This document shows, piece after piece, positions 1,906 to 63,862 of a stretch of 64,000 nt of DNA. Position 1 is the first letter of the stretch; each line of letters opens with the position of its first letter. The notes under the pieces are model-generated. The model was not told where the DNA came from. It was given only the letters and a program-made list of their open reading frames with translations, and searched no databases. The stretch is from Branchiostoma floridae (lineage: Eukaryota; Chordata; Leptocardii; Amphioxiformes; Branchiostomatidae): positions 14,484,666 to 14,548,665 of the forward strand of contig NC_049997.1 in NCBI RefSeq assembly GCF_000003815.2, in the 5' to 3' direction. The position numbers and the translations under genes are program-made.

Positions 1906-1925
1906 CTACGGTCACTTTTTTTTTT

Positions 1926-1954: not shown

Positions 1955-2072
1955 CTTCTATCCATAGTAGTCGCCGTTGTGATGGGGTGATGGAGTGATG
2001 TTGAGATGAACGGACCTGTTCAATCCATGCCAAACATTTCTATACCTGTTAAAACAGGCATTTCTTCAACAT

Positions 2073-4112: not shown

Positions 4113-4137
4113 GAGGTCGCACAACGGTAGCCAAACC

Positions 4138-6015: not shown

Positions 6016-6159
6016 ACAGGGACGAATGTCAGCTGGTGGATCCCTACGCGCGGCGGGACTGCGGTTGGCCGGGCATTACTCAAGCTGAGTGTCAGGAGCG
6101 AGGATGCTGCTTTGTTCCCAGTTCAATACCAGGGGTAAACTGGTGCTTTTACCGCACAG
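6016..6159 (+). CDS. Gene A exon: trefoil (P-type) domain
   Basis: One 144-nt phase 1-1 exon, between acceptor TTAAG and donor GTGGGA, encodes a complete trefoil module. It reads [20 protein letters not shown], then [11 protein letters not shown], and ends V-N-W-C-F. The C-x8-10-R-x-D-C-G-x-P-G-I-T core, the GCC and the final W-C-F/Y are the family signature. Trefoil domains are secreted or extracellular modules that bind mucin glycans or associate with the cell surface. An alternative acceptor at CAG (6019) would break the phase pattern, so the 6016 start was chosen. The nearest downstream exon is the lectin domain at 7344, whose first codon joins in frame. Confidence 0.88.
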
Positions 6160-32600: not shown

Positions 32601-35600
32601 AAAGTGTATCCACCTGGTGCTGCATCTACAGAAAGGATGAAAGTCAAAAATCAACAACGACGAAAGTTTTTCTTCGTCATGAAGGAGTACGTTCTCCTGT
32701 TCCTGTTTGTTGTGGTTCTGTTCTTCATCAGCCATCACGACAAAGACCCGTTTGCTTTCAACGCATCGCAGACGTTGCACGACACTGTTCTAGAAGATCA
32801 CGATTCGGTAGGTCATTTTCAATTCACCATGTTCAATCAAGAGCACTGCTAGATCTAAGGACAAATGTCACTGATCTTCATAATGGAACCATAATTTATG
32901 AATGAATGATTTCTTGGCATCTTTTGAGAACGTGTTCTTATTCGTAGTCAGTCACCTTCTCCCCAAAGCTTCTGTGAACCCATTGGAATCATGATGCATG
33001 ATGAACTTTGAAAAGAAATTGTTATCTGTTAACATCTTTAAACATGCTTCATTGAATGTATTTACTCTGCGTCTTGCAACTTTACAGATCACCACTGCTG
33101 ACGAGTTCTGGACATGGACTGAGGAGATCCTCCTGCCTGTTTTGTACCCGTCGTTCTGGTACAATGGGTGGAAGATGAAGTATCTGGACCGACAGTTTCC
33201 TCTTTATACTGAAGCATTTAGAATTGGCCCACCGCGACTTACTCAGTTTAGGAAGGCACCAGGTAAGAATCATGACCTCTTCTCTATTATCGTACATAAT
33301 TACTTTCATTTCGATGAACTCCTTTCTTTTTACTCTTTCAAGCCCTTTTTTTATAAACTGTTTAAATGTAATTGTCTTAGATATCGTCTCTACTTTTGAA
33401 TCAAGTGTAACAATGTCACAACTAAACCGACCAACCAAACCTTTGTTGTCACAGTAGAAAGTACACGAGCTTTTAAGCAGTAGGATAATTCTGTGCAGGT
33501 TCATTTTCAGTTCTATAAATTGCATAAGCTTCCTATAGATGCATTTGTCTTTTAAGAAAGAATTTCCTGTTGCATAATTTAAAGTTTTGGTACTCCATTC
33601 AGATGACATGGCAACAGACCTCCCTGAAAATGGATGGATGGTTGAAACTGGAGACGGTAAATCCGCATGTTGGAAGTTCAATGTCACCGGCGTGATGTCA
33701 AACAACTCAGGCTGTTCCGCAGAACACTCCATGGAACTCCCAACTCTCCTGGGTTTGGCGACAGCAATATTCTCCGACCTTCGGGATAACAAGTGGATCG
33801 ACAAATACACAGATTACCTGGTTCTGGATCTGTCGCTATACTACCCAGCACAAAAACTGTTCAGTAGTCTGAGACTGACCGTAAAGCAGGAAGATGTGGG
33901 ACATCTTTCAACATCAGCATCTTTTGCAACACACAGGCTTTTCCAGTACGAAAATGACTCTGATATGGTCGCTTTGTTTTCCTATATCCTCTTTATGTTG
34001 TTATTCTTGGTTAATATCATCAAAGAAGCGACCACAATGAAGAAGGAGGGAAGGAAGTTCTTCAGTTCTATGTGGAACATCTTTGCTTTTGCGAGCATAA
34101 TTGGATCTGCAGCTGTCATCGGTATCTTTGGAATAAGGTACCACTCTGCATCTGCAGCACTGGCAAAGTTGGTCGAGGCAACAGGTACATTGTTGCAGAT
34201 TGTCGCATTATACATATTCAGAGATTGTAGCTTATGAATTTGAATATGAATTCTTTCTTGATTACAATGAAACATGCCATAATTGGGGAAAATGCTTCTT
34301 GAAGTGCATGTTGTCGGCTTCTATCGTAATCTGGGCGTTAGATGAATTACCTCCGGTTGATCGTATGTCAACTATGAATTTTACAGCAACAAAGAAACAA
34401 ACCAATTACCATCTCTCATATTTGCATCTCTTCTTTTGTAGGCGAACTTGGAATAGATCGTTTTGTCGACTTGAGCTCACCCTTCTGGTGGGATGAAGTT
34501 TTCAAGACCGTGCTTGCCATTGTACTGTTCATCACTACACTGACGTTACTGCGAGTTTTCCGCTTCAGCAAGACCATCGCCAGTTTCATCGCCCTGCCAG
34601 GCGCCATGAAGAACGACTTGGTCGGCTTCTCAATCATAACGGCCATAGCCTTCATGGCTTTCAGCTGCTCAGGTAAGAGGTGCTTCCCCTCATTTTAATG
34701 ACTGTGACAGGGTTATAACGTTACTGTATATTCCTTGCCTAAATGGACTGGACCTTCTTGGTCCTTAGAGAAGGTAGAATGACGTAGGTCAATGGTACTT
34801 TTCAACATAGATTAAAACACCGACGTCGTATTTTACTTAGAACTTTGTAATTGATGACGTAAGACATTTCCTATATTTATTACAGGGATGCTGGTGTTTG
34901 GGACTCATATGAAGGCATACACCAATGTGTTGCACACCAACTTTGCCTTATTTGAGATGTTATTGGGAAGGTATGTATTGTCGTCATTGCCTCATTTTAA
35001 CATGTTTTTTTGTGTTTACATTGCACATAAAGCTATTACGAAGTGAAGATAAATGGCAGGGGAAGGGTACTCCTTAATAAATTTTCCTATAAGCAACTTT
35101 TTAAAAAATCAGCAACATGTTTTATATCACACATAAAGCTATTGTATGTGAAAATAGATTCCGTGGGAGGGGGGTAGATAAATTTTCCTAGCTTCTATGA
35201 GCAACCTTTTGACTTGAGGGTCATGTTCTACAGGTTCTTTGCCGAGGAAATCTTAGAATCGAACCGATATATCGGCCCGATCTTCTTCACTTTCTTCATG
35301 ATACTCATCTTCATACTACTCGTCAACTTCCTGGTGACCATCATCTGTGATGCCATTGCTACTGGTGTCTACGCTGCGGATGAACATGACCAAGAACTGG
35401 CTGACTACATCTGGAGAAGTTTCCAGAGAGTCTTTGGGATTCATGTCCCTCCACCGAAGGATGTAATATCAGGTAACTAATCTCTACAGGACAGTTTATC
35501 TGTGTTGGTAGAAGTGAATGTGAAGCACATTCGAAATCTTGAATCTAATCACGACGACAATGGCACATGCTCAAAATTTCAACTGTGAAACTCTAGTCTT

Positions 35601-43216: not shown

Positions 43217-44624
43217 TCATAGTTTTACACAGTACATTAAACCATGGTGCATCTATATGTTCTATTGTATTCCTCTAATTCACCATGAAAGGAAGGGTGT
43301 TTGTTTGTGCATGTTGTGGGAGCATCTGTTGCAACGATTACAGTTAAGGAGGGTCAGCCTCTTCGAACTGGTCGAGGATTTTGTTTGGGATGTCCTAAAA
43401 CGTAATTACGTCGCTAAAATGAGAAAAACAGCGAAAATAACTTGTAGCTGGGTCGACCGAGTCTTTTTCATATGGGCTTTGCTTCAGCTAGTGACCCAAG
43501 CGGCAGGTAAGGTTGATTTTAGTCTTTTTTTACTACAGGAAATTCTTCTCCTTTTTTTTACCTCACCTCCATTAAGCCGACTTGACAATTCGTGCGAACG
43601 CCGGCCGAATTTGTAGATCGGTCAGCGCTCGCCGAATTTCAGCGTCGACCGAGCATCGGCAATATTTTTCGCTGAAAATCTGTCCCATTATAAATTGTAC
43701 GGAACTCATCTGACGTCCGTCCAACACCACTGATTATAATGGTACTATGTCTTGAACATGGACGAAGTCAGAACTGACTAACCCGGCAATAAGCCAATAT
43801 CTGTATTAACTTTCAGTGAGTTGCGAGAAATATGTAGGGCAAGAGTGGACGGTCACACTGAAAACAATAGTATCAATGGAATGTTGTGATACACCAATCC
43901 AAAAGCTACCACATGAGCCACAAAGTGAACAGACTAGTCGGATTCACCGCAATACAATAATTCTGACCAAGCGGCAATCGGGCGAATCTCGGGCAAACCT
44001 CGGATGGAGGCCAGCAAAGACCGTCCGCGTCTAAACCAATAGCAAAAAATAAATAGAATGAACTATCTCTGTATCCGATTGCCTTTCTTTATAAACCCTC
44101 GATAAAATGCACGCAGCATTCTTAGAGACGTTCATACAGTACTTGAAAGTCAAAAACAAAGGCATGTATTCAGCACAGGTGTCAAATTGAGGTGTTAAAA
44201 TTCTGTCGAGACCCTTCCAGCACGACACTCGCCCGAAGCAGGCCCAACTTGTCAAAAGTCGGACGGAATACTGTTCGAATATTGTAGGAAGCTCGAAAGA
44301 GTCTCAACCAGTCGCTAGGCCGAAGAACACCGACCTGAAAAAAAAGAGGCAACCCATTGACGAACTCTCCGAGCGCAACGCTCGCCGCCAAGGCCTCGCT
44401 GAAATAAAGCGCAGCTGCAAGTGCCCTGCAAACGCCGGCCGAGCTGCTAAAAATCGCTCGAGGCCAATGAGGCTTGACGCACCGGGCCAGACCCGACAAT
44501 TATAGTTTTATACAGTCCATAAAACCTGAAGATACTATGATGCATCTACGTACATATTTATTGTATTCCTCTTATTCACCATAACAGGACGGGTGTTTGT
44601 TTATACATGTTGTGGAGCACATGT
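43217..44624. repeat. Direct repeats flanking the first exon of gene B (43217-43326 and 44497-44624)
   Basis: 'tattgtattcctct.attcaccat' and 'gggtgtttgttt' followed by 'acatgttgtgg.gca' occur in the same order at both places, separated by about 1.28 kb. The signal-peptide exon 43419-43506 lies between them. The enclosed DNA is more GC-rich ('acgccggccga' at about 43600 and 44430) than its surroundings. The remainder to 44850 shows nothing else. Confidence 0.6.
43419..43506 (+). CDS. Gene B exon 1: start codon and signal peptide
   Basis: ATG at 43419 (A at -3) opens an 88-nt coding part ending GCA-G before GTAAGG, so phase 1, as the next exon at 46891 requires. The peptide has a basic start (M-R-K-T-A-K), a hydrophobic core VFFIWALLQLV, and T-Q-A-A-G as a cleavage region: a standard signal peptide. 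The same reading frame continues upstream in what is probably 5' UTR. No similar exon was found ahead of gene A. The connection over a 3.4-kb intron is inferred from phase and function. Confidence 0.7.
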
Positions 44625-47600
44625 GACAACCGAGTGTAATAAAACTGATGTGCCATCAGAAAAAACAGGCTCGTCAATTCGACTATTAAACATTATGATA
44701 TACAAAGTATAAACAGTATTACACTACATGGATACCAACGCATACGGTATATATACTAAAACATTACGACTTTATTTCAAATTCCTAATGTAAAATTCTA
44801 TGTTTATTGCCACATGGGACTTAATGATACCCTGACGTTTGTCTTCCAAGACGTTGGTGGACGGAATTATGAATATGCATATTAGGGCGGCTTCGATAAA
44901 GCATGTTTGGCATAATGATACAGAGGGAGATGATCGTTATAAAGATTAGAGACAATGATAAGACAGTAAATAAAGTCATTTTTGGGATAAACTCCTGTTT
45001 TAGCTAGACGGTAGTAAAATGAGGTATTCTAAGATAACGTTTGACGCCATCGTTTCCAACGTTACACCAAGGACGTTATATATACATATAGCTCTTTATA
45101 TATATACAGTCCTTGGCTACACCCCATAAAATCATAACAAAGGAGCACAAAATGCCTGTCTTATGAATAATCTAGAGTGCTAAGGACACGTTGGTGGACG
45201 GGATTAATATCATGAATATGCAAGTGTGGCATAATGATACAGATGGATTTGATCGTTATAAAGATAAGAAAGATAAAATTGTAACAGTAAATAAAGCCAG
45301 CTTTTGCGATATACTCCCTACTCTAGTTTTAGGCTTTTAGCAGTCTTACATTTCCTACCTGGTCAATACACTAAGCATAACGTATCATAGCAACATTGCA
45401 TAAACATAATACGTAATTATATTTCAGCCATACCATAGGTATGGTGAAATATATTGTATTCGTAATGTTTCTTCTTCTTTCTCCTGTCACCGAATGACTT
45501 GAAATTTGGCACAAGGGTAGATTGGGTCAATACCCCCGACTTTTTTTTCATTTTTTTCATAACTGCCTTTAAAATGATTTTGTTAAGGTTCTTTGGTCAT
45601 CTTAAGACCAAAACTGTATATTTTGGCCCCCTGTACCCTGGTATTATAACCGAATGAGCTGAAATTTGGCACAGATATGCCTTAATAATTCCTCCATATA
45701 AATTCAATATCACTTTTGGTGTACATTATAACGAAATGCTTAATTTTGCGATTATTTGGCCATTTTATGACCAAAAACGTACACTTTTGGCTCTGGTGCT
45801 CTGGTTTTAAAACCAAAATGACCTAAATTTTGATAAAAGGGTGCACTAGATATTTATTCAAATGACACATGTATAATTTTTGTCATAAACTACTTCAAAA
45901 TGATATGTTTGGGGATTTTTTGTCATTTTCCAATATCCAGAGGGGTCAATTTTTAGTACCATGCTGTAGATGCATTTAAGTTCGCGTGGATTTAATTTCG
46001 CGGGAGCGGGAAAAAGGACTATTCGCGGTGGTTTTAACTTCGCGATAACAACATGCATAAAAGCTCTGTATTTTAAGATTATTAAAAGCCAACAACTCTT
46101 ACCCGTAAAACAGGCTCCAAAATGCCAGCATATCCAAAGAAAATGACGTATTACTTTGTGTTAAAAAAGACAACAATGCATTTTCGCGGTGTTTTAACGT
46201 TATACTCGCGGTTGTCGCGTTGCCAATTCACCGCGAACTTAAAACCACCGCGAACATTTTTCCATGGCAGTAAGAGGCTAGAGTGCATGGTGCTACCGCG
46301 AACTTAAACCCACCGCGAAAAGTCATTTTTCCCCGCTTCCGCGAAATTAAATTCCCACGAACTTAAATGCATTTACAGTACTGTATTACAAATTGACATT
46401 CTGCGTCTGTGCTGAATTAGTGATCTTTGCCCTTCAGCTCGAGTGCCACATATTCTTTCATCCAATTCAAAATTGCTATGTCCCACTTGAAATCAAAGCA
46501 TCCTTACCCTTTTGAGACCCTTCCGTCCACTAGTTCATATTGGGCAAGACCCACTTGCATGGGGATGATTGATGCCATGCCACTTGAAAGAATAATCATC
46601 GTAACCATAAGCGAGGTCGGACGTCCGGTATTCAAACTAGTGTCAAATGCAGGTTAGACGAAAGTGACCACTACAAGATACATCATGTAAATTTGAAGTT
46701 ATGCTAACAAAACTTTATGATGAGCAAAGGCTGCACATTGTCATTTTTAAATGATGAAATTGCATATTTTGACGTATGCATATTATGGGACGAATAGGGC
46801 TGTCAAATGCATTAAACTATTAAATTCTGACAGCTTGTTGTGGATTATCTGGTTGTGCCTGTCATTATATCCCACATTCGTATGTTTCAGCTGGAGGGAC
46901 ATGTGGACTATCAACGTTTACCCACGTTCCCCAGAGTGACTGTGGTGATGTGGACATATCTGGTCACGGCAGCGTTACTCTCCAGTTCTGTGTAGACGCT
47001 TGCTGTGCAGAACCGACATGCGTGTCGTTCCAGTACAACACCCAGTCAACTTGCTATTTGAAACACACCATCTGCACAGCGGGGGAGAAAGTGTTCTCGT
47101 CAGGTGGCAACATGTACGATCGGCAAGTGTCAGGTAAGTGCATTGCTACCACAAACTGCATGTTGAAACCGGAAGACATCGACCCCTCTGGAACAAAAAC
47201 CATGCAAATATTGTGATTAGAATAGTTCTTTTATCTCCACTATAACAGAAAAGCTAGGAGAAGTTGAATTTATGCAACGATAGTTTCATTTTGTATCTGT
47301 TAACTGTATCTTTTCAACACGTCTTGTTGTAATCAATCAATCAATCAATCAATCATTATCTCCTGGGCAACCGTGAATAGCTAGTATCGCTGTACACAGC
47401 CTTACTTTACGCATAGTACGTACGTCACATACAGAACGAGTGATGCAAGGGACGGACAGGTCTGCGGTGTATGTACTTGACATCAAGTCAATATCAAATG
47501 CAGAGAAACGAGACAGTATCCACACTTTGAGTACGCACTTACACAAAGCATAGTCACTAGTGAAACACCAAAGGCAGGCGTGTTTGTAGAAGGTCGGACG

Positions 47601-50600
47601 TCATCCATCTAATGCCTTAATTTTTTTAACGGGAACAAGGTCAATAGACCACTTCAAGGCAATGAATAAGAAGTTGGAAACAATTATACTCGGAGATAGC
47701 GGTGGACATTTGTTGGAGATAGCGGTGGACATTTGTTTCGAAGGCTGATAAGAAGTTATAGATAGGAGGGAAACAGTTGCCGTCAAAAGATTTCCATAAT
47801 TTTGCTGTCCGGGGAAAAACGTTTGCTGTAGAAGGACTTGGAAACTGGCAATTGAACAGTATAGCGATGTGAGTTTGAAGAGATCCTAGTGTTGCGCTGT
47901 AAGGCTCTCAGTGGCGGGACAAGTAGTATGATGTCGTTGGAGCAATAGCCATGGATGTACCGGCAGAAGAGAGACTGGGATGCAACGTTTCGTCTGTGTA
48001 ATATTTGTATTTTCAAGGAGGCTTATTCTAACAACCATGTTATACGTTAGTAGCCTGGATATCCCCAAGGCCGATGGATGTTTAACGTTCGCAACTGTTT
48101 TCTCAAAATTATCAGAGTCAATTATCGGGGTGTGTTGCTGGCTAAATTGTCGAAGGTCCTCGAAAAAATAGTATACAAACATCTTAATAACCATCCTACT
48201 TATCCTCTCCAGTTTGAGTTTATACAATGACTCACTCAATGACCGTAAGTCATTTCATGGCCCTCCTGCCTAATTAACTGACCCACCAACTTTGATGTGC
48301 CATATATTGTTCTTGGCTTGCTATATTCCAGAATTTTCAACAGGAAGTGGAGCACAATACCCATAAGTTGGTGTCAGACCATATAGATATCACCTAAAGC
48401 TCATTGATATTGAAATATGAATATGATAAGCACAGCTATATTTTATCACTTTTAGGCTCCAAGCGCTAGCCCCAGGAACATATTTGTGACACAAATATGG
48501 TATCTATGTATTCAGGAATGAGTATTCTACAATATTCAGCCTGTCCCACACGTACTAGTGTGATTTCAACAGAGATATGTTTTAATATGTTCAAAATATT
48601 ATGAAAAATGGCATATTTGCAATATTCATGCAAGCCTGACAGGTAACTGGAAAAGGGAACAACCATGGGCCAGGTTGAACATTGAAGTGCAACATGTGTA
48701 CTTTCCATACATGTCTTTTGTGACAAATGAAAATATTGCATAAGCTAGCGCTTTTACGAAAGAAAAAAGATGACAAAATTTCAAGTTTGGGCTACTCTAA
48801 GGATGAAATGTGACACGTTTGTTTTGATAAAGGAACAATATGGCCAATCAATTTGTTTACACAACCCCCTGACAGTAGGACACCGGGCTCTCATAGGCGA
48901 ACAATGGGAATTGTTCACACCTTTACCTGTCAAGGTATATGTGCCAGACACAGCTTGGCTTGGCTTGGTTTGGTTTGACAAACAACAAACAAACAGCATT
49001 CGAGTATCTGAAATTACTTTTAAACAAATGCTGGGTTTCTAAATACAACATAGTATACACAATTATTGCAAATACATGGTTATGGCCTATCATGTTATAC
49101 CATTATCAAATGGTGTGATATGTTCACAGCAAAGTGCATGATATCAAGGTTCTATTTTGAACATCCTTGATAATATTTTGTGTATCCACAATTCTACCAA
49201 ACCAGACATAACCAGAAAGTTGTCATCATGACTGTCTGTCATGATTCAGTAATACTGGAGACTGAATAGTAGCTACTAGCAATAGGTGTATTGACAAAAC
49301 TAAAAAAAGGAGACTTTTACATGTGGCTGTATGTTCAAATTTGAGGGTTTAAGTGTGAAACTCGGTGCCATACTGGCAAGCTGACTATGGTACATGTTAC
49401 ATGATGGGTAAGTAGCCACGATGGTAAAATGCAAAATGCAAAGAACATACTTTCGGTAGTTTAGTCTGAGTTTTACACTGACGCAATCAAGGACGTTATA
49501 TTGAATTATAAAACATATAACTTCCTTGCTGCTTAGTATGAATCTAAATTGCAAAACTGGTTTGGTTCTATTTCTAGTGTTGCTTCATGTGAGTAGAATT
49601 TACTATAATTAATATAAAGCTGCTTTGGCAAATTGATCAAGACAAAAAGAACTGCAAATCTAACAAGACACATTTAGGATACTGTTAATAAAGTACCAGC
49701 TCAGTAACTTGCAAACAAGAAAATATCCGACGTCTTTGTTTGGGGAAACATCATGGCTACATTCTTGCATGTATTTTGGTGTCTAACATTAGTTACAGAA
49801 GTTCCAAAGCTAAACAAATCAAGTGCAAGTGGATGCTTTCTCTAGAGAGCTGTAACTTACATGTTCTAAGACATTTGCAGATAGTCAAAGTAAAAATCTA
49901 GCAGTGACTATCTACTACGTATGAAACAGTTAATGCTCAATACACATCATGTTGTCATTCCCAGACAGTACTGTCTGAAACAACCCTCCACACCCCCGGG
50001 GTTCCAGGTAACACTTTACCTGGCTTGGTGGAACCCCTCTTGGGATGTTTTCACACTGGGCGGAGAGGGGGCAATTAGTCAACAATGGGGTAACTTGGGG
50101 TCAAAGTTCGTTGCTATGTGTTGCTAGGGGAGCCGACACCCACTTCGCTGGGGGTCTCAAGAAATGACTTACGGTCATTGAGCAATTGTCTTTCAACGAG
50201 TTTACATCAATAGCCAAATACAAATCAGAATTGATGATATCAAAGGGGTGTATGGAAAGGTGTAAAAACGACGAGTGCACATACATGTATGTCCCAATCC
50301 ATCCCATGTACATGTCAAGTTTCAGGTCAGGTGGGTTTTACATGTTGTTTCATATATTGTACGAGTTACTGTGTGTATATTAAGCTAACACTAAAATAAC
50401 ACAAGATTGTATTTCTTGCACTCTGTTCTTAAGCCACGCAGTGCCCGACACTCTCCAACCCTACAAACGGTGCTGTGAGCTACAGCTCCAGGAACTCCGG
50501 AGATGTGGCCTCCTACTCGTGTAACACAGGATACAACCTGAATGGCTACTCTACACGGACGTGTCAGTCTTCAGGCTCATGGAGTCAAACTGCACCAACT

Positions 50601-53600
50601 TGTGCAGGTATTCAGAGTGGGATGTGGAATATGAAACACGTTGAATAGCTATGTAAAAAAAGTAGCTGCTGCAGTTATACTTAATGTTTCCATGTGGTAA
50701 GGTAAACCATACAGTGGAGACAGAAAAATGAGTTTAAAATGTGTTTAATGGTCAATATAGGTATCCAAGCCACTCAAAATACGTTAAAGCTTTCTTGGGG
50801 GGTTGCCATCATCTTTATTGACACGGAAACGCAACACATTTAAAATCAACATACAAGTTGAGTTTAAAAGACGAAGAAGCTAGGCCGACCCCTAAATCAG
50901 AATAGTAAAAAATTCTGGAGGGCACAAGGTTTTTATTAGAATTATTAAATACATTCTACTCTACAGTCGTGCAGTGCCCGACACTATCCAATCCTACAAA
51001 TGGCGCTGTGAGCTACAGCTCCGGGAACTACGGAGATGTGGCCTCCTACTCGTGTAACACAGGATACGACCTGAATGGCTACTCTACACGGACGTGTCAG
51101 TCTTCAGGCTCATGGAGTAACAGTGCACCAACTTGTGGAGGTATTCAGAATGAGTTGTGGAATATGTCTACGTCGAATAGCAATGTGAATAAATAGCTGT
51201 TAGATTTTATGTTTCCATATCGTAATGTAATCCGTAAAGTGATGACAAAAAGCTGAGTTTAAGAATTTGTTTTAATCGTTAATACAGTATAGGGATTTAT
51301 GCCACTCAAAATACGCCACAGATTTCTGTCTTTAATTAGATTTAATTTAGAATAATCAAATACATCCTATTCTACAGTCGTGCAGTGCCCGACACTATCC
51401 AACCCTACAAACGGTGCTGTGAGCTGCAGCTCCAGGAACTACGGAGATGTGGCCTCCTACTCGTGTAACACAGGATACGACCTGAATGGCTACTCTACAC
51501 GGACGTGTCAGTCTTCAGGGTCATGGAGTTATAGCGCACCAACTTGTGGAGGTATTCAGAATGAGATGTGGAATATGTCTACGTTGAATAGCAATGTGAA
51601 TAAATAGCTGTCAATTTAATGTTTCCATGTCGTAAGGTAATCCGCACAACCAGGGAGTACTCAATTTCAATGTTTCGGTGTCTGTCATCAGAACAGAGAC
51701 GAGGGGGATACAAATTGAGCCACGATTGGGACGGCATTCTCGCTGCTATAGTGCCACCTTCATCGGCCATAAGTAGCAGCGAGAATCGTATCCAGCCATT
51801 CTAACCCTGATAATGGTGTCTGACAAACACCGAAACGTTGGAAGTTACTCACTGGTGTGCTTAAAGACCCTATATGTAGATGTACAGTTAAATTATGTTT
51901 CCACGTGGTAAGGTATCCATATAAAGTGGAGACAGAAAATGAGTTTTAAAATGTGTTTCAATCGTTAATATAGAGATTGATACATACATACATACATAAT
52001 ATAGTGATTAATACCATTCAAAATACGTTACAGCTTTCTTTCTTTCATTCGAATGATTAAATACATTCTACTCAACAGCCGTGCAGTGCCCGACACTATC
52101 CAACCCTACAAACGGCGCTGTGAGCTACAGCTCCAGGAACTTCGGAGATGTGGCCTCCTACTCGTGCAACACAGGATACAACCTGAATGGCTACTCTACA
52201 CGGACTTGTCAGTCTTCAGGCTCATGGAGTAACAGTGCACCAACTTGTGGAGGTATTCAGAATGAGATGTGGAATATGTCTACGTCGAATAGCACTGTGA
52301 ATAAATAGCTGTTAGATTTTATGTTTCCATGTCGTAATGTAATCCGTAAAGTGATGACAAAAAGCTGAGTTTAAGAATTTGTTTTAATCGTTAATACAGT
52401 ATAGGGATTTATGCCACTCAAAACACGCCAAAGATTTTTGTCTTTAATTAGATTTAATTTAGAATAACCAAATATATTCTATTCTACAGTCGTGCAGTGC
52501 CCGACACTATCCAATCCTACAAACGGCGCTGTGAGCTACAGCTCCAGGAACTACGGAGATGTGGCCTCCTACTCGTGTAACACAGGATACAACCTGAATG
52601 GCTACTCTACACGGACGTGTCAGTCTTCAGGCTCATGGAGTCAAACTGCACCAACTTGTGCAGGTATTCAGAGTGGGATGTGGAATATGAAACACGTTGA
52701 ATGGCTATATAAAACATTTTAGCTGCTGCAGTTAGACTTTATGTTTCCATGTTATAAGGTAATCCATAAATTGGAGACAGAAAATGAGTCCAAAAATTTG
52801 TTTTAATCGTTAATATAATGATTCATGTATTTCAAAATACGTTATAGATTTCTGTCTTTCTTTAGAATGATTAAACACATTCTTCTCTACTCTACAGTCG
52901 TGCAGTGCCCCACACTATCCAACCCTACAAACGGCGCTGTAAGCTACAGCTCCAGGAACTACGGAGATGTGGCCTCCTACTCGTGTAGCGCAGGATACAA
53001 CCTGAATGGCTACTCTGCACAAACGTGTCAGTCTTCAGGATCATGGAGTCCAAGTGCTCCAACTTGTGATCGTAAGTGAAACGTTGGAACATGAAACAGT
53101 TTCAATGTCAGTGTACGGCTTTTGTTTTTATGCAGTATCTTTATGATGATATTCGTCATTCTACATTCTTAGCAGATGGTAATGAACAAAGTAAATAAAG
53201 ATAGGAAAGTTTTGAAACAGTTTTGTCTTTTTATGTTTTCTTTCGTTGTATTTCTTTTCTTAATTAATATTTCTTTATGTATAAACAGCATAGTGACTGT
53301 GTCACGTTTAATCTGCCTACAGTTGGACAGTGTCCCATACTGACAGCCCCTACAAATGGTGCCGTGAGCGGTTCCAACTTCTACGGGGGCATGCTCACAT
53401 TCACCTGCAATGTAGGATACAACCTGGTCGGTTCCTCTACACTTTCCTGCCTGTCGAGCCTAACCTGGAGTGGAAGTCCACCAACATGTGCAAGTACGAT
53501 GTTCAGAAACAAAATGAATAAGATACGTTTAGGCATCTAGATGAACATAGAATATTCTATAGATAAAGGAAGGCTTGTGCTTAGCTATGAATTTCGGCAG

Positions 53601-56348
53601 TGATATGAAATTTATGATTTTTTTGCTGATTCTAACAAAAAATGCCATAACCGTAACATATCGAACTTTAACTTTAATGAAGGTCTTTCTTTCTCTCTTT
53701 ATATATGACTTTGAACATTGGACCGAAATGACTTTTCTAAACACGTAATTACTCTTTGTACTAGTTGTACAGTGCTCACTGCTGACAGCCCCTAACAACG
53801 GTGGAATGAATGGCGGCAATAACTACCAAGACGTAGTGACGTTCAGCTGCAATCTTGGATATGAGATCGTGGGAAGTTCAAGTGTAACCTGCCAAGCTGA
53901 CGCTACATGGAGTAATAATGTCCCAACCTGCACACGTATGAGAGAAAGTTTCTGTCTACTAAAATAGAAGAACTCTCAATGGCCAAGGATAATAATTAGT
54001 CACATATTTGGAACGCAGACGGCAATACCAATAAAAGAAATGGCAATTTAAAAAAATCTGTCATTCCAAAAGGAGTCCCTAGCTGCACTGTATGACACAG
54101 GATAGAGCTGTTATCTGTAATGACAGACCTGCATGTTTGTGAGAATAATCTAGATACACAATAGAATGATATTTTATTAGTTCCACTTAATCTTTATTAT
54201 TGTACCAGGCGTGCAGTGCCCGGCGTTGCAGTCCCCTACAAATGGTGGCTCGAGTGGCAGCAACTACTACCAGGACGTGATGAGCTTCACCTGTGACTCG
54301 GGTTACGAACTTGATGGCTCGGCAACCATAACGTGCCAGGCAGACCGCACGTGGACTGACAGCGCTCCAAGTTGTCCGCGTAAGAATCAATTTCATCTCC
54401 AGCTAGCCTTGTTGAAAATATTAAAAAGTCTTTCCTTTGTTCGAATTGATCTACTTAGCTATTAATGAATCGTTCCATCAGGTTGGTATTTTACAAGATG
54501 TCGTGGTTCGTTTATAGACAGGCAATACCAATCACCAGCCAACGTTTCTATGGCTCCTCAGAGTTATCTTCTATGAGGGTGTATATTCTTTGTATGAGGG
54601 TGATACAAGCTTAGCCATGTTTGGTACCACATTCTTGCGAATGCAATGTTATCTAGCAGTGAAAGATAAGTCAGTATAGCCACGAGGAAGATACCAAAGT
54701 GATTATAGAAAGGATTTGGTAGACAACAATACTTGTTGTATTGAAAGAACCATACTGTGAAGTTATCCGCCCAGCACTGCACTTTCAAGCATGTCGTACT
54801 TCAATTTTTAGGCGTACAGTGTCCACTACTAGCAGCTCCTGACAACGGTCAAAAGTCTGGCGAGAATTACTACCAAGACGTATTGACGTTCTGGTGTGAT
54901 CTTGGATACGAGCTGGTTGGACCTCCCAGCATGACCTGCCAAGCTGACAGAACATGGAGTGATATCGTCCCAACCTGCGCACGTATGGAACTTTAATTGT
55001 GTCTATTGAAACAGATGGACTTTCATTGACTAAGGATGATCATTACCTACATATTTAGAAAGAAGACAGCGATTCTATTAACAGAGACCACAGCTCATTG
55101 AAAATTGATTAAGGAATGACAGCTACCCTTATCTCCGAATTTTCAATTTTGTTTCGTTCTATTTGGCACAAGTAATTTATTTATAATCATCTATAATTTG
55201 ATTTCTGGTACCAGGCGTGCAGTGCCCAGCGTTGCAGTCTCCTACAAATGGTGGCTCGAGTGGCAGCAACTACTACCAGGACGTGATGAGCTTCACCTGT
55301 GACTCGGGTTACGAACTTGATGGCTCGGCAACCATAACGTGCCAGGCAGATCGCACGTGGACTGACAGCGCTCCCCGTTGTCCACGTAAGAATCGATTTT
55401 ATACTTATATTTAGGTATCAGAAGGACCATAAAAGGACTCCATTTGGTATCAGACATGTTCAAAGAACAATAGCGTTTAGTTGTCTATCCAACGATGGAC
55501 TTTAAAACATGTCGTACTTCATGTTTCAGCCGTACAGTGCCCACTGCTAGCAGCTCCTGACAATGGTCAAAAGTCTGGCGAGAATTACTACCAGGACGTG
55601 TTGACGTTCTGGTGTGATCCTGGATACGAGCTTGTTGGACTTCCCAGCTTGACTTGCCAAGCTGACAGAACATGGACTGGGAACGTCCCAACATGCACAC
55701 GTAAGACAGAAGTGTTCTGTCTAAAATGATCCGATACAGATAACTAGATAGTTGCGCCAATGATGACGATATTTTCATGTCGAATTAATTTTCCCCTGTG
55801 AAAGTCGGTACTGTTTATCAGGTACACATGTTGTAAATATAACCATGTTAAATGTGGTGCAATAGAACTCTTGACTGTATGAGAGTCTCTTTAAAGGCAT
55901 ATAATGCAAGGGAAATGTAGATAACAGCAATGGAAAAAGTATTTCGGTATATTTGTATAGTCTGATTACAACCTCTTTCCAAGATACTGTTTCGTCACGT
56001 CTAAAGCTTTTAATGATATGTATCCCAGGTGTGCAGTGCCCAGTGCTGTCGTCTCCTGTAAATGGCATTTCCAGTGGCTCCAACTTCTACCAGGACGTGG
56101 TGACGTCTACATGTGACCTAGGTTATGATCTGGTTGGAGATTCTAGTTCTACGTGTCAGGCAGACCGAACATGGAGCAGTAACACGCCATCATGTAACGG
56201 TAGGATACAATAGACATAGAGAAATCCAGTTTTACAAAATATTTTAGTCGATAAGATGACTCTAGAAGGATTTTTGTCAGAATGGTTGTAATTCACCACA
56301 AAATAACTTGTTATGAGATGTTCTTGTTTATCACACCTACTCACACAT

Positions 56349-56425
<77 letters not shown>

Positions 56426-59400
56426 CAAAATGATTTTTGCTTGTTTTGCTTAACCCATGGGCAATTATTATATGAAGAAAATATTCTTGCAGGAAGAAAA
56501 TGTAAAATAAAATTCAAGCAAAACGAGAAACTACAAAAAAAATTTCTAGGGATTCAATCATTAATTTTCATATTTTTTTCTTATAATGCAAGAAAAAAAT
56601 CTAGAAATTTCTATTTTTTTTTTAAAACCAGATTCAACTCTTAAGAAATACAAGAATTTTTGTCTTCCCTTTCTCCAAATATGACAGGACTTTCTTCCCA
56701 GAAGATAAATTTTCTGTGACTCACAAACACACACACAAATCTCTTACGCACACAGGGATGAAATATCTATGCTATTTCTATCGGTTTTGAGCATCCGATT
56801 TTTATTGTAAAAAACGATGCTTCATATAGAACGTTGACAATTCCTAAAACATCGCTGTACCTATACATGCTGGAAGCTAGCAAATTGTAAATTAACGATA
56901 TTATATGGCTGCGTAAGGAATTTACAAACTTTTCGCCAGAGTCCGGTCTCCAGACAAAACTATCTGGAAAAGGTCGCGTATTCTTTTTTAGGTTCCTATG
57001 TAAGTGCATTGATATTTAGCATTATTGGTCAATTGTCTGAAAATCCTGTCTATTGTTGTATTCTAAATGTATCAATGTACTTGCTGTATTGTGAACGTCC
57101 TTTTCCTTGTTGCCTGTATGCAGACATTGATGAATGTTCAGCCGCAAATGGAGGCTGTGACCATGTATGCAGCAACACAATGGGCAGTTTCCAGTGTTCC
57201 TGTGTGACCGGTTTCAACCTGAACGTAGATAGCTCCACATGTGATGGTAAGAAGCAAAGCATTATCTTACATACGGCAAGACTGTAAGTTTGGACACATG
57301 CATATATCAATTATCATGTAGTGCCATGTACTTGTAAGTCTCAAATCAGTGTTGAGGATTATGGCTTTAGCTGTGCTATCTTACAGCTATTTTATTTTCA
57401 GTCTTTTTAAGATCATTTAAGGGAATTTTCAGGTGGGAAAATACTTGTCTTGTAGGCAATGCATAACATTTTATGTGTTGTCCGTTTACATTTTACAGAC
57501 GTCGATGAATGCAACGTTGGAAATGACGTCTGTCAGCAGAACTGCAACAACATCATCGGAAGCTACTGGTGCTCTTGTGGAACTGGTTACAGGTTAAATA
57601 GCGACAGTCGCACTTGTGCTGGTGAGACACGGCATTGAATATTACAAAGGATTTAGTATTTCATAGATACGTATACAATTCATGCCCATTTGCCTGCAAC
57701 TAAGAGGGCTATTTGCCATGTTATAAGCCGGACAAACGGCTGGGAACCCGTCAAAGGTCTTGCTACTGAACCATATAACGTGTCACTAGGTAAAAGAAGA
57801 AACAAGAGAACAACACACCTTCTCAGCAACATTTTAAATGCAAGCACGATAATATTTCAGTATGTTTGTCATCTTTTTTTAAATACAGATGTGGACGAAT
57901 GTTCGGGTGCCAATGGTGGCTGTGCCCAGGCCTGTGCCAACACCATAAGCAGTTTTTATTGTTCCTGTGGAAATGGCTATAATTTGAATGCCAACGGATT
58001 TTTTTGTGACGGTGAGTAAATTTCATATCATGCAAGAAATAGTTCTGTGCTGCAAGAGGGCCAAAACGTCTGTCACTTCGTTCCTGACACAAAAGCTATT
58101 TATGCACCATCCCAAAATCACGACTATAGGCCAACACGTATAACTACCAACAAAATATCATCGAAAACCTACAAGGTACGCCGTTTAGACGTCAGACAGA
58201 CAGTCACACGTACTCAAAAATATAGCCCTCTTATCAAATGTAATACAACGTGTTTTAAAAGACCAGGTTGCATCATAATAAAATCACCCAGTAAACGAAG
58301 CTCGCGCAACACTCACTTGTCGGTTCTGGCAGCTGTTCTGCACACATGAGGTCTAAATATGGCTTAGAAAATAAACCAAATAGCCACTCTTCAAGAAATT
58401 CTACTAACATAGACATAGCAGATAAGACATGAGAGTTTGACTGCACATAAAAAGTAAATGATATATTCAATTAAACTCATGTTTGTTGATTCACATATTT
58501 TACTTCACAATCTTTTTTCTGCCTGTTGAATAAAAGTACGTTGGGTGAAAAATGTTTTCGTTTGATTTTGTACTTTTTGTCAATAGAAAAAAAGTACAGT
58601 TCTCAGTACTTAATCAAAGAAAATTAAAACATATTTATGATTTAATACAGACATCGACGAATGCTCCATTGGAAATGGTGGTTGCGGGCAAACCTGCACC
58701 AATCTTATCGGGAGTTTCCAGTGCTCATGTCAGAATGGGTACAGTCTGAATAGTAACGGATTTACTTGTGACGGTATGTGTCTTTGTTATTCCTTTTTAT
58801 TTGTTGATGACAATAAAATAGTACAGCAATCCATATTCATAGGCATTTCATACATGAAGCAATGTTTCGACAAGAAAAATACATTTACGAAAGTAAAATA
58901 CATTTACGAACGTGTCAGCTATCTTACTACAGCATTTCTCAGGATAGATGTACACAAGATTAGTTCAAAATATCGGAAGACAAATTTTCGTTTGCTCCAT
59001 GAAAAATGTCAATCAACGTCTTAAAACCAAAAGCCAATGACAGAGCAGCGTGTGCAATTTTATGAAGGCAAGAGTCGTCATAATTAGAAATATAGTCTAT
59101 CCATATTCTGAATACAACTTTAGACACTGCTTTTTTAGTCTTTAACCCTGCGAGACAAGTATGCATTTGGTTTTATTTATCTATCAATACAGACGTGGAT
59201 GAATGCACCTCTACCAACGGTGGCTGTGAGCAGACTTGTACGAACAGCATCGGGAGTTTTCAATGTTCCTGTGGGGCTGGCTACAGCATAAACAGTAATG
59301 GTTTTACTTGTGACGGTAGGTATTTCTGTTTTGGTATATTACGTTCTGTTTCGCAAATTTTACATGTTATGCTATGTTATATTATGACTTTAGTTAAAAA

Positions 59401-62400
59401 GGTAAATTATGAGTGTGCCTTTAGCTTTTCACTAATTGCGGAGTCTACCCAAAGGAAATCTCCTCACAGTCATCACCGTCTTAAAATCCGTTGTCTTCGT
59501 CATTATCATAGCCATCATTACTATTATATTACCGTTGTCATTATCATGGTGCTTCTACTATGATTTATTAGTCTCCACGTCTAGACGTAGAAAAAAACTA
59601 CAATGACGATATGTATGTAGCAATTTATAGTCTGGCATTTCCCGCTACTAACGCCTTGTACATTCCCCATATTTTTTCACCACAGATGTAGATGAATGTG
59701 CCTCTGGTAATGGTGGCTGTGAGCAGCATTGCACGAACAACATCGGCAGTTTTGATTGTTCCTGCTCTACCGGGTACAGATTGAATAGCGATGCATTGGC
59801 TTGTGATGGTAAGTTATGTCCGTCATTACGATAAAAATATTTTCTAGACTAACAAGTCACAAGTGCTGAATAAATTCGACATATGTCTCTTACAAGTCTT
59901 TAGTACATGGATTGATATGAAACATTCGGGCTCTTATTAACCCTAGCATCTGTTGATGCATGTTTTACTCACAATAAATACATATTGTTAACATACAGAC
60001 GTGAATGAGTGCGACACTGCAAACGGTGGCTGTGACCAGACTTGTACCAACTCCATTGGAAGTTTCCAGTGTTCATGTGGAATTGGCTACACCTTAAATG
60101 GCGATGGGTTTTCCTGTGATGGTGAGGAATATCTTTCTGTATTTTTCTGTCTTTTTGTTTCTTATTTTCTTAAATCAGCAAATCATTTTTTATTAGTATT
60201 GCTGTTTTACTTACTGTTAATGTTTCTTTTCTCTTTAGATGTCGACGAATGCCACACAGCAAATGGCGGATGCGAGCAGATGTGTAGCAACACCATTGGA
60301 AGTTTTCAGTGTGTCTGTGACAATGGTTATGTATTGAATGGAGACGGTTTCGCGTGTAATGGTAGGTAATGTGACGTTGGGTTTTAACGTTTACAATTTT
60401 TTTTTCGTTACAGCTTCTTTTCTTTCCTCTCGGACAAACCGTCAGTGATTTGTGGTATTTAGGGTCCCGTTTGGCCTAATGAATATCACCTTAAATATTA
60501 CAAAGTAAAGAAAACAATATGTAGGTATGAAAAACGGGAAAAGTCGGATCCACGGAAAAGAGCATGATTTACATTGCACAAAATAGGTTTTATGGTTGAA
60601 ATGGTTAAACGTATGTCACATTTATTTTGCATACACGTGACACCATTCAGAATATTTTTTTTAAATGTGTTATTTTCTTTTTATTCAAAGATATCGATGA
60701 ATGTGATACTGCGAATGGCGGCTGCGGGCAGATTTGCAACAACACCATCGGTAGTTTTGAGTGCCTCTGTCATCCTGGCTACATCCTGAATATCGACGGA
60801 TTTGCCTGTGATGGTTTGTATGATTTTGTAATATATACATAATGTAATATCTTTACTTGTTCCTCTATACCACATCATCCGAGGTTATATAATCGATTAA
60901 GTCGTTGCATTTTTTTGCTATTAGATATTGATGAATGTGAGACAGCAAACGGAGGCTGTGGGCAGTTCTGTACCAACACCATTGGTGGCTTCAACTGCTC
61001 ATGTGCGACCGGGTATAACATAAGTACGGACCAGTTTGCTTGTAACGGTAAGGGCTTTAAATGTTTTTCAATCATAGCTCGCTTCTTGCATGTTTTCAGG
61101 GATAACATTTTTTTTCTAACATAATAGTATGTATTGTTGGTCATCAAACAGACATACTTTGCCAGTAGAATAGCCTTCAATAGACTTAAGAGACAATAAA
61201 TGTAAGAGACATGCACACATCACATGATATGCTTGGGGACTAGAGAGATGATACCAAAGCGATTTGCTGTTTCTGTGCATATCTTATCCTACAGGATTTG
61301 ACCCCATGTCACGTCTGACTTGCTTGTCCACAACAACAACCTCCATCTCTGTTAGCTGGAAGAAGCCAGTTGCTCACATTATGGGTTACAGTGTTATGTA
61401 TATCCCAGTATCCGGTAAGTTTTTTTCTGTTTCCCTCCTTTTGCAGTTCTCTTCTCCTTTATTAACTTTGCGTTTAGAAATTATGACAAAGGTTTGATTC
61501 TATAGTTGTGCATAATACATAATGATTTTTTTCTGAACATCATAGAATTATGATATTCGTATAAACACTCTTTAACTCAATGTATTGATTTCACTAAAAT
61601 GTACACTAATGAACACTACAAGTATCTTCAACATTTGTTGTGCAATAAAGTTATGATATTCTTCTTTTGGCCACTGATTGGTAAAGTTAGTCATTTTATT
61701 ACATTCTTCCTGCTCAGGATTCTCCCAGTCTTCAGTGATGACAACGTTCCTGAGTCGTAATGACACCAATGCTACAATATCCGGCTTGTTCAGCGGGGTG
61801 CAGTATTCCCTCACGGTTCTTAGCTTTGGACTGTGGAATGATAGCGCTAACGCCGATGTAGAGTGCACTACTGGTAATTATGCTATTATATTATGTAGAG
61901 AAACATTAGATCAACAGTTAGGAATGTTTCACTAATTATCTAACTGGATGCTTAAATGAATTATAATTGAAAGAAACATATAAACCCTTGGAATGCACTA
62001 CCATTAAGTTATATTCGATAAAAACATTAATTGCCAAACATTGATGTTGTTTATCTCAAGAATTGTATTTCAAAAATCATCTTGATTTTTACAAAGGTCG
62101 GTAATCAGTGACTATTTTTGTCAGAACGTATGAACTAACCACCTATTTCAAATACAGACATGCCGCCTCCCATGAACTTCACCTTCAGCCACGTCACCGA
62201 GAATTCAGCCAATTTCCATTGGCAAAAGCCTGTCAGGGCTCAAGTGGTTGCGTACAGGGTGTGGCTGATAGACAAGGAAACAGCACTCACAGTTTCCACA
62301 CAGTATCTGCTTGACTCAGCGACTTCGACCGCTTTCACGTATCTAACTCCGGCTGCAGAGTACGTGGTGGCAATAACGTGCATCAGTCTCTCCGTCGAGG

Positions 62401-63862
62401 GACCGCAAGCAAGCGTAGCCATCATAACAGGTAAAAACTCAATATCTTATATTAATGAGACTGAATGAATATTCTGTGTGTGCGATTGCTACTTCTTTCC
62501 ATCGCACACATTTCCATATCGCTTATGAAATTCTGTTCCAATTGGTAACATCTATACGTCTACCTTACTAGGATTGCTGCCTTAACGTTTTCTTTAATAC
62601 AAACATTAATGTTGCTTATCTCAAGAGTTGTATATCGAAAGTCATCTTAATTTTTTCAAAGGTCGGTAATCAGCAACATTTTTTGTCTTGTACTTAACTT
62701 TTGAACTGACCACATATTTTAAATGCAGACCTGCCACAGTGTATTACATTAAACACATTCCATCTCTCATGACATTTTACTCAAATTGGTAACTTCTGAC
62801 ATTACACGTCTACTTTTCTAGACGAGTTGTAATCAGAGCCGCATTGAATCTGTATTGCACTGCTAATAGCTACTTGAAAGTACATGCTTTTCCTCAGTTG
62901 AGGATGAATGCGATACCTTTATATCTTGATACAAGTATGACGCCATTTTTTACATGTAAACGGCAGATACGGATCCTCCAAGGCAGCTGTTAGTGGACGA
63001 CATTAGGTACAGCAACCTGGCTCTGTCCTGGATCCCACCAGTGGCTAAGCTGTCGGAATACCAATTGACCTACAGCAGCGCAGAGCAACGTAGGGAACGA
63101 AGAGCACTCAGCTCTTTCACCCTTCCAGGAGACATCAGTAACTACTGGCTATATGGACTTGTTCCTGCAACTCAGTACACCATCAGCTTAACAGCGGTCA
63201 GCAGGTTTGGGAATAGTGGGACAATTGATCTAATGGCTACCACAGGTACGTTTAAGACTGAAGACATGCAAAACTTTCTTTACTTTTGCAACATCTATAA
63301 AGCTTTCATGTCAAGTAAAGAGAAACGACGATCACCTACTATCGAGATTGATGATTGTTTTAATGTCATACAGTATGTTTATTTATTTAATGTAGCAAAA
63401 ATATTAAAAGAAACTCTAGAAACTTCTCACATCATCATTAAACGACGAAGACGTCAACATTTTTGTTGTTAAACGTTATTCTACGCCACTACACGAATTA
63501 ACTGCCGACGTTTTAATAAATCTTCCACTTGACTTTTCTGAGGACAATACTGACTGTGGTTCTACTTCCCACTACTAATTGCAGAAGTGGAACTGGTCAG
63601 TATTGCCCCGAGGAAGGTAACATGAGGACTACCGCAATGTTAGCAGGTACAACGTTAATACCAAGTGTATTATATACTTCGATGAAACTATTCACGGATT
63701 CATTACTTTGTAATGTAAAGGTACGGACCCACCGACTGAGTTGAAAGTTGAGACCGTCTCCTCCAGCTGGCTGCACGTGGTATGGACTCCACCTGTTGCA
63801 GCTGTGATATCTTATGATCTCACGGTAACCGATGCTACAAGTCAGGAAAAGATACATATTAG
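43419..63862 (+). CDS. Gene B: paralog of gene A with PAN/apple head; 3' part beyond the window
   Basis: This is the whole-gene span within the window. Visible exons: signal peptide, PAN/apple-like, 13 sushi, 10 EGF, FN3 domains 1-3 and the first half of FN3 4. All joins are phase 1 until the last (phase 2), so a single frame runs through. From 53323 onward the exons equal those of gene A in length and order, and introns are also nearly identical (for example the 328-nt intron before the last sushi). The head is unrelated to that of gene A: no trefoil or lectin is seen and six 174-nt sushi exons are added. By homology the gene should continue into GAIN, PLAT and channel exons to the right of the window. 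Confidence 0.85.
44850..45330. repeat. Two-copy direct repeat, ~335 bp period, intron 1 of gene B
   Basis: 'gttggtggacgg.att' then 'ggcataatgatacaga.gga' and 'acagtaaataaag' occur at about 44850-44985 and 45187-45300. Between them lies a near-palindromic 'aaggacgttatatatacata' ... 'tatacagtccttgg'. There is no coding sequence. Confidence 0.6.
45450..45940. repeat. Interspersed repeat, copy 2 (partner at 1-345)
   Basis: It shares with the start of the window the ordered phrases 'tgaaatttggcac', 'tggccattttatgaccaaaa', 'acgtacacttttggctc' and 'catgtataatttttgtc'. Here it precedes the PAN/apple exon by about 1 kb; at 1-345 it lies about 5.7 kb before the trefoil exon. Confidence 0.6.
45957..46385. 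mobile_element. MITE-like element with ~90-bp terminal inverted repeats
   Basis: The left arm ('ctgtagatgcatttaagttc', then 'ggatttaatttcgcgggagc' and 'ttcgcggtggttttaa') is mirrored at the right end ('ttaaacccaccgcgaa', 'cgcgaaattaaattcccacg', 'aacttaaatgcatttacag'). The element is about 430 bp and non-coding. It is followed by ordinary intron DNA up to 46890. Confidence 0.75.
46891..47133 (+). CDS. Gene B exon 2: PAN/apple-like domain
   Basis: The 243-nt phase 1-1 exon encodes about 80 residues rich in cysteine: T-C-G-L-S-T-F, S-D-C-G-D-V, F-C-V-D-A-C-C-A-E-P-T-C-V-S-F-Q-Y-N and T-C-Y-L-K. The C-x(2-3)-C-C-A-x-x-P-x-C-x-x-F-x-Y-N...C-x-L-K pattern is that of PAN/apple modules, which bind proteins or sugars. 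A WSC-like fold is less likely. It is preceded by a clear TTTCAG and followed by GTAAGT. It takes the place held by trefoil plus lectin in gene A. Confidence 0.75.
47331..47356. repeat. (AATC)n microsatellite
   Basis: Six or more tandem AATC units in the intron after the PAN/apple exon. Confidence 0.85.
48232..50190. mobile_element. Possible ~1.95-kb transposon with short inverted ends, in a gene B intron
   Basis: 'ctcaatgaccgtaagtcatt' near 48236 is the exact inverse of 'aatgacttacggtcattgag' near 50161-50181. An inner palindrome 'ggggttccaggtaa' ... 'ggaacccc' lies at 49998-50037, and 'ttcacacctttacctgtcaa' at about 48914 is loosely related to it. No transposase frame of useful length is visible, so this would be a non-autonomous copy. 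The whole intron 47134-50433 holds no recognisable exon. Confidence 0.5.
50434..53071 (+). CDS. Gene B exons: sushi (CCP) domains 1-6, gene-B-specific 174-nt type
   Basis: Six phase 1-1 exons of exactly 174 nt lie at 50434-50607, 50967-51140, 51378-51551, 52079-52252, 52490-52663 and 52898-53071. They encode nearly identical sushi domains: Q-C-P-T-L-S-N-P-T-N-G-A-V-S, then Y-G-D-V-A-S-Y-S-C, G-Y-x-L-N-G-Y-S, T-C-Q-S-S-G-S-W-S and A-P-T-C. They are one codon longer than all other sushi exons in the window and have no counterpart in gene A. Exons 1 and 5 share the ending S-Q-T-A-P-T-C-A. The introns after exons 2 and 4 are almost identical. The array therefore grew by recent duplications of one or more exons at a time. 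Confidence 0.9.
51655..51880. mobile_element. Retroelement-like insert between sushi exons 3 and 4
   Basis: The ends are inverted relatives: 'tttcggtgtctgtcatcag' near 51674 and 'ctgataatggtgtctgac' with 'caccgaaacgttgg' near 51808-51840. The 'caccgaaacgtt' end resembles the 3' ends of Penelope-like or similar retroelements. The sister introns lack it. A longer-than-average frame (51619-51804) has no recognisable domain. Confidence 0.45.
53323..56199 (+). CDS. Gene B exons: sushi (CCP) domains 7-13
   Basis: Seven 171-nt phase 1-1 exons lie at 53323-53493, 53765-53935, 54209-54379, 54812-54982, 55215-55385, 55530-55700 and 56029-56199. They correspond in order to gene A sushi 1-3 (single copy here), 4, 5, 6, 7, 8 and 9. 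The four cysteines and tryptophan are intact in all. Differences from gene A are scattered substitutions, such as F-Y-G-G-M-L for S-Y-G-D-V-V in domain 7. The last two exons and their introns are nearly the same as in gene A. Confidence 0.9.
56340..56422. repeat. (CA)n microsatellite
   Basis: A long CACACA run with a few interruptions, in the intron between the sushi and EGF arrays. The rest of that intron (56423-57123) is AT-rich without exon signals. Confidence 0.9.
57124..61047 (+). CDS. Gene B exons: ten calcium-binding-type EGF domains
   Basis: Ten 123-nt phase 1-1 exons lie at 57124-57246, 57499-57621, 57889-58011, 58651-58773, 59193-59315, 59686-59808, 59999-60121, 60239-60361, 60691-60813 and 60925-61047. 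Each has D-[IV]-[DN]-E-C, six cysteines and the C-x-N-x(4)-[FY]-x-C-x-C hydroxylation pattern. Sequence is almost the same as in gene A. In EGF 2 the residue before the second cysteine is V (D-V-C) where gene A has G. In EGF 3 gene B has A-N-T-I-S-S-F-Y where gene A has T-N-T-I-S-I-F-Y. Gene B lacks the piggyBac-type insert after EGF 10. Confidence 0.92.
61295..63862 (+). CDS. Gene B exons: FN3 domains 1-3 and first half of FN3 4
   Basis: The exons are 61295-61414, 61718-61873 (FN3 1), 62158-62430 (FN3 2), 62967-63245 (FN3 3) and 63721-63862 (first half of FN3 4, ending in phase 2 at GTAAGC). Lengths equal those of gene A (120, 156, 273, 279, 142). FN3 motifs are V-S-W-K-K-P, F-H-W-Q-K-P, L-S-W-I-P-P and V-V-W-T-P-P. 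FN3 3 keeps the R-R-E-R-R motif (63089-63103). The second half of FN3 4 is expected just right of the window. Confidence 0.88.
62657..62755 (+). pseudogene. Relict FN3 exon start in gene B (same as 21460 in gene A)
   Basis: 'aaaggtcggtaatcagcaac' and the acceptor-like 'aaatgcagacctgccac' repeat the border of FN3 exon 2 (62095-62170), but no FN3 coding sequence follows ('agtgtattacattaaacac'). Confidence 0.6.

Follow-up and report, generated by a model that had tools for sequence, protein, structure and literature searches.

By comparing two neighbouring genes in a 64-kb stretch of animal-type DNA (GC 39%; this whole stretch is hereafter called the window), we found that a block of about 5 kb coding for part of their stalk is much more alike between them, introns included, than most of the sequence that flanks it. 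The two genes, A and B, lie head-to-tail on the plus strand and their ectodomain exons, coding for sushi, ten calcium-binding EGF and fibronectin type III (FN3) modules, match each other in the same collinear order. The best account of the locus, and a likely one, is a pair of tandem polycystin-1 paralogs, born from a fairly old duplication and later subjected to conversion of this stalk block. According to this model, A and B would be head-to-tail paralogs that most likely both belong to the polycystin-1 (PKD1/REJ) family, each with a long extracellular stalk built from sushi, calcium-binding EGF and FN3 modules and, beneath it, a PLAT domain and a channel of the polycystin type. At a later time, the part of the stalk from EGF 2 to the first FN3 would have been copied from one gene to the other by ectopic recombination, most probably in one or several non-crossover gene conversions. 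By analogy, the outer modules would bind ligand, and the tail, probably together with polycystin-2 as its partner, would form or gate a cation channel.

To delimit the features listed in Table 1, exon chains were built with a simple model of splice sites and codons that had been seeded on the window's own exons. This model shows edge effects at the first exon of A and the last exons of B, puts the start of B (43472) within the signal-peptide exon, and begins the FN3 exon at 22640 too late. Pfam supported Lectin_C, PAN_1, Sushi, EGF_CA, fn3, Trefoil, PLAT, Polycystin_dom and PKD_channel; the scan took one sushi and one EGF exon (EGF_CA E=5.1e-10 for the B counterpart of EGF 2), and the remaining ones were assigned by likeness. 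A motif scan of the window found no sushi or EGF exon beyond those modelled, and no Rfam family matched in the window, which contains two runs of N (11342-11894 and 15271-15413).

Table 1. Coordinates of the features in the window
Feature	Position	Strand	Basis and remarks
Trefoil exon	6017..6159	+	Pfam Trefoil E=1.7e-17; probable start, from an acceptor of phase 1
C-type lectin exon	7344..7759	+	Lectin_C E=8.3e-17; in-frame TAA 7757-7759
Gene A sushi 7, three near-identical copies	10221-10391, 10768-10938, 11028-11198	+	Alignment
Gene A sushi 8-13	12050..14413	+	Exon model, sushi tree
Gene A ten EGF exons	15073..18950	+	Each of 123 bases with phase-1 entry
Low-divergence island, gene A side	15214..21210	+	Two-state model; includes the insertion as well as N gap 15271-15413
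Mobile-element insertion in gene A	19094..19960	+	Inverted CCCTATCCAGACC ends, TTAA target duplication
Gene A FN3 exons	20070..23548	+	Some ends approximate
Gene A GPS-like Cys/Trp motif, then hydrophobic stretch	29362..29962	+	Read from exon model
Gene A PLAT/LH2	30086..30678, continuing in exon 31067-31245	+	Pfam PLAT E=5.6e-20, spliced model
Gene A polycystin domain and cation channel	33088..35472	+	PKD_channel E=5.4e-34, Polycystin_dom E=4.2e-13
Gene A final coding exon with stop and coiled-coil-like tail	36481..36995	+	AATAAA at 37176
Gene B start codon and signal-peptide exon	43419..43506	+	Donor score 5.5
Gene B PAN/apple exon	46891..47133	+	PAN_1 E=9.5e-5, 22.6 bits vs cut-off 21.4
Gene B six private sushi exons	50434..53071	+	Exon model; one clade, support 100/99
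Gene B sushi 7-13	53323..56199	+	Exon model, sushi tree
Gene B ten EGF exons	57124..61047	+	Exon model, Pfam
Low-divergence island, gene B side	57265..62436	+	Two-state model
Gene B FN3 exons	61295..63861	+	To near window edge

The global alignment of A and B comprises 9578 columns with 90.3% identity, spread very unevenly along the genes. A two-state model was preferred over a uniform rate (2dLL=817 on the 6429 columns outside the exon list), and none of 2000 column permutations reached the variance observed between 300-column windows of non-exon columns. A uniform divergence of the two genes, the outcome that the sequence-only reading had named as speaking against it, is thus rejected by both approaches. 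The longest low state, which we call the island, shows 2.3% differences over 3325 non-exon columns. The eight other low runs are short, the largest covering 428 columns at 4.2% (A 13738-14514), and the high-state runs of more than 100 columns reach 18-47%, a figure that includes poorly aligned stretches. By using gapped local alignment, a more cautious measure than the two-state model, we obtained substitution levels of 2.0% (A 15414-19093) and 4.6% (A 19955-21211) in the island, matching B 57461-62437 overall. The flanks gave 10.4% (A 11895-12789), 14.5% (12877-13176), 5.3% (13235-13441, 207 bases around one exon), 5.7% (13671-14520), 12.5% (14712-15270) and 13.8% (21444-22783), so that four of the six flank alignments fall at 10-15% and two short ones at 5-6%, with unalignable intron stretches between them. 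The earlier description of B as repeating A nearly base for base, introns included, therefore holds only for the island (A 15414-21211, B 57461-62437).

Synonymous divergence follows the same pattern, with a dS of 0.064 in the 11 island exons (EGF 2 to FN3 1b) against 0.185 in seven exons outside (sushi 7-11, EGF 1 and FN3 3; Fisher p=1e-4). This 3-fold contrast is milder than that of the introns, and dS in the island exceeds the intron divergence there (0.023). Sushi 12-13 have a dS of 0.066, and FN3 2, inside the modelled island, has 0.168. Since FN3 2 lies ahead of the modelled right border, this border is blurred and best put between ~20740 and 21211; the tight part of the island ends near 20740, with A windows 20738-21137 at 92% identity. 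In each of the 21 A/B exon pairs that we compared, both members have the same number of codons and neither contains a stop. Selection on exons alone was rejected as the cause of the island, because the introns within it are as alike as the exons. An island that includes introns is the pattern that ectopic gene conversion leaves, and the suggestion of a possibly gene-converted body is well supported in the form of a mosaic of low and high divergence.

We weighed two other origins for this mosaic. First, the left border of the island coincides on the A side with the N gap 15271-15413, so misassembly at this end is possible. If haplotypes or copies had been misjoined at gaps, part of the low-divergence block would be an assembly artefact; the N gaps 11342-11894 and 15271-15413 are indeed neighbours of near-identical repeats and of the left border, and the three sushi 7 copies of A stop just ahead of a gap. 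However, no gap occurs at the right border in either copy, the two differ by 2-5% plus a clean insertion in A, and a second lower-divergence patch (5.7%, A 13671-14520) is distant from the gaps. The gap-free right border, together with the A insertion and its clean, intact empty site in B, favours real copies, and we consider even a partial artefact unlikely. Second, the same mosaic is predicted if A and B were a recent whole-gene duplicate (~2% divergence) with flanks replaced by recombination with diverged family members, a scheme in which the head of B could come from a third gene, in keeping with the deep branch of its private sushis described below. Yet at least two replacements from unseen donors would be required, and sushi 8-13 and FN3 3 stay collinear between A and B on either side of the island, which makes this second scheme quite improbable.

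The family to which the preferred reading, an old duplication followed by conversion, assigns the genes is read from the tail of gene A. Because it reaches a PLAT and a polycystin channel domain, gene A is by its predicted domains a polycystin-1 (PKD1/REJ) type receptor-channel. Compared with the PDB, its tail matches chains of PKD2L1, polycystin-2 and polycystin-1 (best of each E 1.6e-34 to 2.5e-32), and in the exon model the PLAT domain sits after a hydrophobic stretch, in keeping with its place after the first membrane helix in this family. At least for A, what had been described as a shared stalk is hence the ectodomain of a receptor-channel of polycystin-1 type. No Pfam GPS match was found in gene A; a Cys/Trp pattern visible at 29362-29800 is GPS-like in its motif spacing. 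The usual GPS cleavage residues are H-L-T, and the GPS-like cysteines at 29729-29800 stand without them, so the product may escape cleavage at this point. A 611-residue hand-joined model of 22640-29962, crude in this part, gave no Pfam match to the REJ domain. For the tested parts of the gene A tail, no second copy was found elsewhere in the window. Between the last two modelled exons of gene A, a reverse-transcriptase-related zinc-binding remnant lies on the minus strand (36117-36467; zf-RVT E=0.0026, under its cut-off).

Gene B leaves the window within its FN3 exons. Its last visible exon ends near 63860, in agreement with the reported extent of the repeat to 63862, and judging from its likeness to A, gene B is most likely also a polycystin-1 family member with the same tail past the window edge. 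The homology with A was correctly placed from sushi 7 onwards, as BLASTN matches begin at A 10205 / B 53307 (82%) and, for the second sushi 7 copy of A, at A 10724 / B 53278 (86%). Ahead of this point we found all exons of the head proposed for B, namely the signal peptide, the PAN/apple exon (donor 6.1) and the six private sushis. By tblastn the PAN exon has no counterpart elsewhere in the window (best other match E=0.29). Neither an apple exon nor a B-like signal peptide was found near A in the window, nor a lectin or trefoil near B. The outer end of B, PAN plus the six-copy sushi array, thus has no counterpart found near A in the window. In the exon model, phase-1 introns precede the sushi and EGF exons as well as the first FN3 exons, so that exchange at these introns, like gain or loss of outer modules, would keep the reading frame. 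Three further candidate exons of B (46438-46652, 47832-47868 and 49965-50089, the last without Pfam match) were not counted.

In a tree of 22 sushi exons, the private sushis of B form the single clade given in Table 1, and the sushi 7 exons of the two genes cluster with each other (93/88, slightly below the star threshold of the tool). The idea that the private sushis are recent copies of B sushi 7 was therefore rejected, as they have their own clade while sushi 7 pairs A with B. Provided that the tree is rooted among the other types of sushi, the founder of the private sushis is apparently older than the A/B split, which implies either that A lost it or that B acquired it from elsewhere. Sushi 8 (95/95), 12 (94/96) and 13 (99/97) pair A with B by position and sushi 10 is left without resolution by the tree. 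Sushi 9 and 11 are mixed between positions; their four exons (12488-12658, 13254-13424, 54209-54379, 55215-55385) encode nearly identical proteins, as if they had been homogenised with one another. The sushi 7 triplication of A extends over 10188-11328 with 95-97% identity, copies 1 and 3 having identical exons, and adjoins the N gap 11342-11894; it is either real or an assembly duplicate.

Gene A had been given a head made of a trefoil and a lectin, and both domains are indeed present. However, the open frame of the lectin exon ends in a stop codon 12 codons past the last cysteine of the domain, and the late GT sites of this exon have donor scores of -2.75 and -6.95. Among 42 sushi and EGF reference exons, with ends fixed by domain and length and with A and B exons that are not independent of each other, the minimum donor score is -0.47; none is at or below -1.0 and 0 of 42 is as weak as those of the lectin exon. 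Between 7760 and 10200, no candidate for a linking exon passed the thresholds (acceptor and donor > -0.5, 60-400 bases, coding score > 3). Likewise, no convincing signal-peptide exon was seen in 1-11300, where the candidates are poor and the best-looking one (1284-1356) has a donor of 0.5. An exon that ends in an in-frame stop without usable donor may belong to a separate small gene, and by its sequence features the trefoil and lectin pair is probably such a gene, with the lectin exon as its terminal exon. In the simplest reading, gene A then has first exons of its own that are hidden or have been lost, or that lie in a gap or to the left of the window.

The opposite possibility, that the trefoil and lectin are the true outer end of A, joined to it by an unusual splice site or an unrecognised exon, is less probable, though a serious contender. 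These exons lie upstream of the A sushis on the same strand, the lectin acceptor is good, and so is the trefoil donor towards the lectin exon (3.63, at least as high as 44 of 58 hand-picked donors, a partly circular comparison given that most of the 58 come from the model, which refuses donors below -1.0). Moreover, the excerpted text of PMC1934368 reports C-type lectin domains for members of the polycystin-1 family, and no AATAAA or ATTAAA that could serve a separate gene occurs between the lectin stop and 9867, the first AATAAA being at 9868. Against this possibility stand the in-frame stop and the lack of both a usable donor and a linking exon above thresholds. Of the exchanged heads once proposed for the two genes, that of B is thus real, whereas that of A is not supported, since the lectin exon looks terminal.

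Relatives of gene A are known in gamete recognition. According to the excerpted text of PMC1934368, sea-urchin REJ proteins 1-4 are sperm plasma membrane proteins, and REJ1 is a receptor for egg jelly. This multi-gene polycystin-1 family (SpREJ/suREJ) resembles the locus studied here in having PLAT and channel domains in several members, and a coiled coil or C-type lectin domains in some. It differs in that we observed sushi arrays, ten EGF and FN3 modules here, and found no REJ domain with our crude model. In Ciona, the s-Themis proteins are polycystin-1-like sperm receptors with a hypervariable region, and their egg-coat partners are encoded on the opposite strand in the s-Themis first introns (PMC7018956, PMC9265791, as excerpted). 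Similarities to s-Themis-A/B/B2 include the polycystin-1-like type, PLAT/LH2 and, for the B types, a PKD channel (excerpt of PMC7018956). In contrast, no v-Themis-like gene was seen on the opposite strand of B introns 1-2, nor a REJ domain in our model. Three simple FReD patterns gave no fibrinogen-like signature in six frames, and none of the 11 minus-strand ORFs listed in B introns 1-2 (at least 90 residues, or at least 60 with four cysteines) had a fibrinogen-like Pfam match, a search that short exons could escape.

Since gamete receptors such as suREJ and s-Themis belong to the same family, a recognition role for A and B is possible, and by analogy it stays plausible by family only. The sequence-only reading went further and saw in A and B a diversifying recognition family (gamete, allorecognition or immune) with heads exchanged on a homogenised body. 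We judge this improbable, even though sea-urchin egg-jelly receptors and Ciona s-Themis are of this gene family (in the cited excerpts), the outer modules of B are without counterpart found near A, the stalk is apparently converted and the clade of private sushis seems to predate the split of A and B. Indeed, the head of A is not established given a lectin exon that looks terminal, two copies and no more are seen, and the fibrinogen-like partner signature is lacking both in the six-frame search and among the 11 minus-strand ORFs of B introns 1-2. In addition, the diversification that was proposed is not supported by the private sushis, where dN/dS is <1 in 14 of 15 pairs and the single value >1 rests on one synonymous change, in a comparison of repeats within one gene rather than of individuals that is a weak test of diversifying selection. 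Under the same restriction, the sushi 7 copies of A gave a dN/dS of 1.10 in two of three pairs, with one synonymous change each, the third pair being identical. A still bolder scenario, in which a gamete or self/non-self recognition cluster of polycystin-1-type receptor-channels would swap outer ligand-binding modules at introns of phase 1 and would keep its stalks alike by conversion, in parallel to s-Themis yet devoid of a linked fibrinogen-like partner, appears very unlikely.

Human PKD1 offers a parallel to the preferred reading of old tandem paralogs with a converted stalk, as it has six nearby partial duplicates and reported gene conversion (PMC11696556, citing Watnick 1998, as excerpted). 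Nearby copies with conversion are thus already known for the polycystin-1 family, at least from this excerpt. The human copies are pseudogenes, whereas the B exons compared with A carry no stop. Among the titles and abstract starts listed by searches of an open-access library, we did not recognise a sushi-EGF-FN3 polycystin tandem pair. In kind, the locus is an ordinary one, probably with tandem polycystin-1-type genes and conversion. Tandem genes that share a converted stalk but differ in their outer ends would nevertheless be a natural place to seek variation in recognition in another animal. Should the lectin exon belong to a gene of its own, however, little more would be left than ordinary tandem paralogs that have undergone gene conversion.

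Finally, repeats were observed in and between the genes. Part of the insertion in gene A, which we presume to be piggyBac-like, matches a second copy on the other strand at 27504-28059 (69%), and the intergenic region between A and B holds an array of ~560-base direct repeats that are up to 97% alike (40628-42804).
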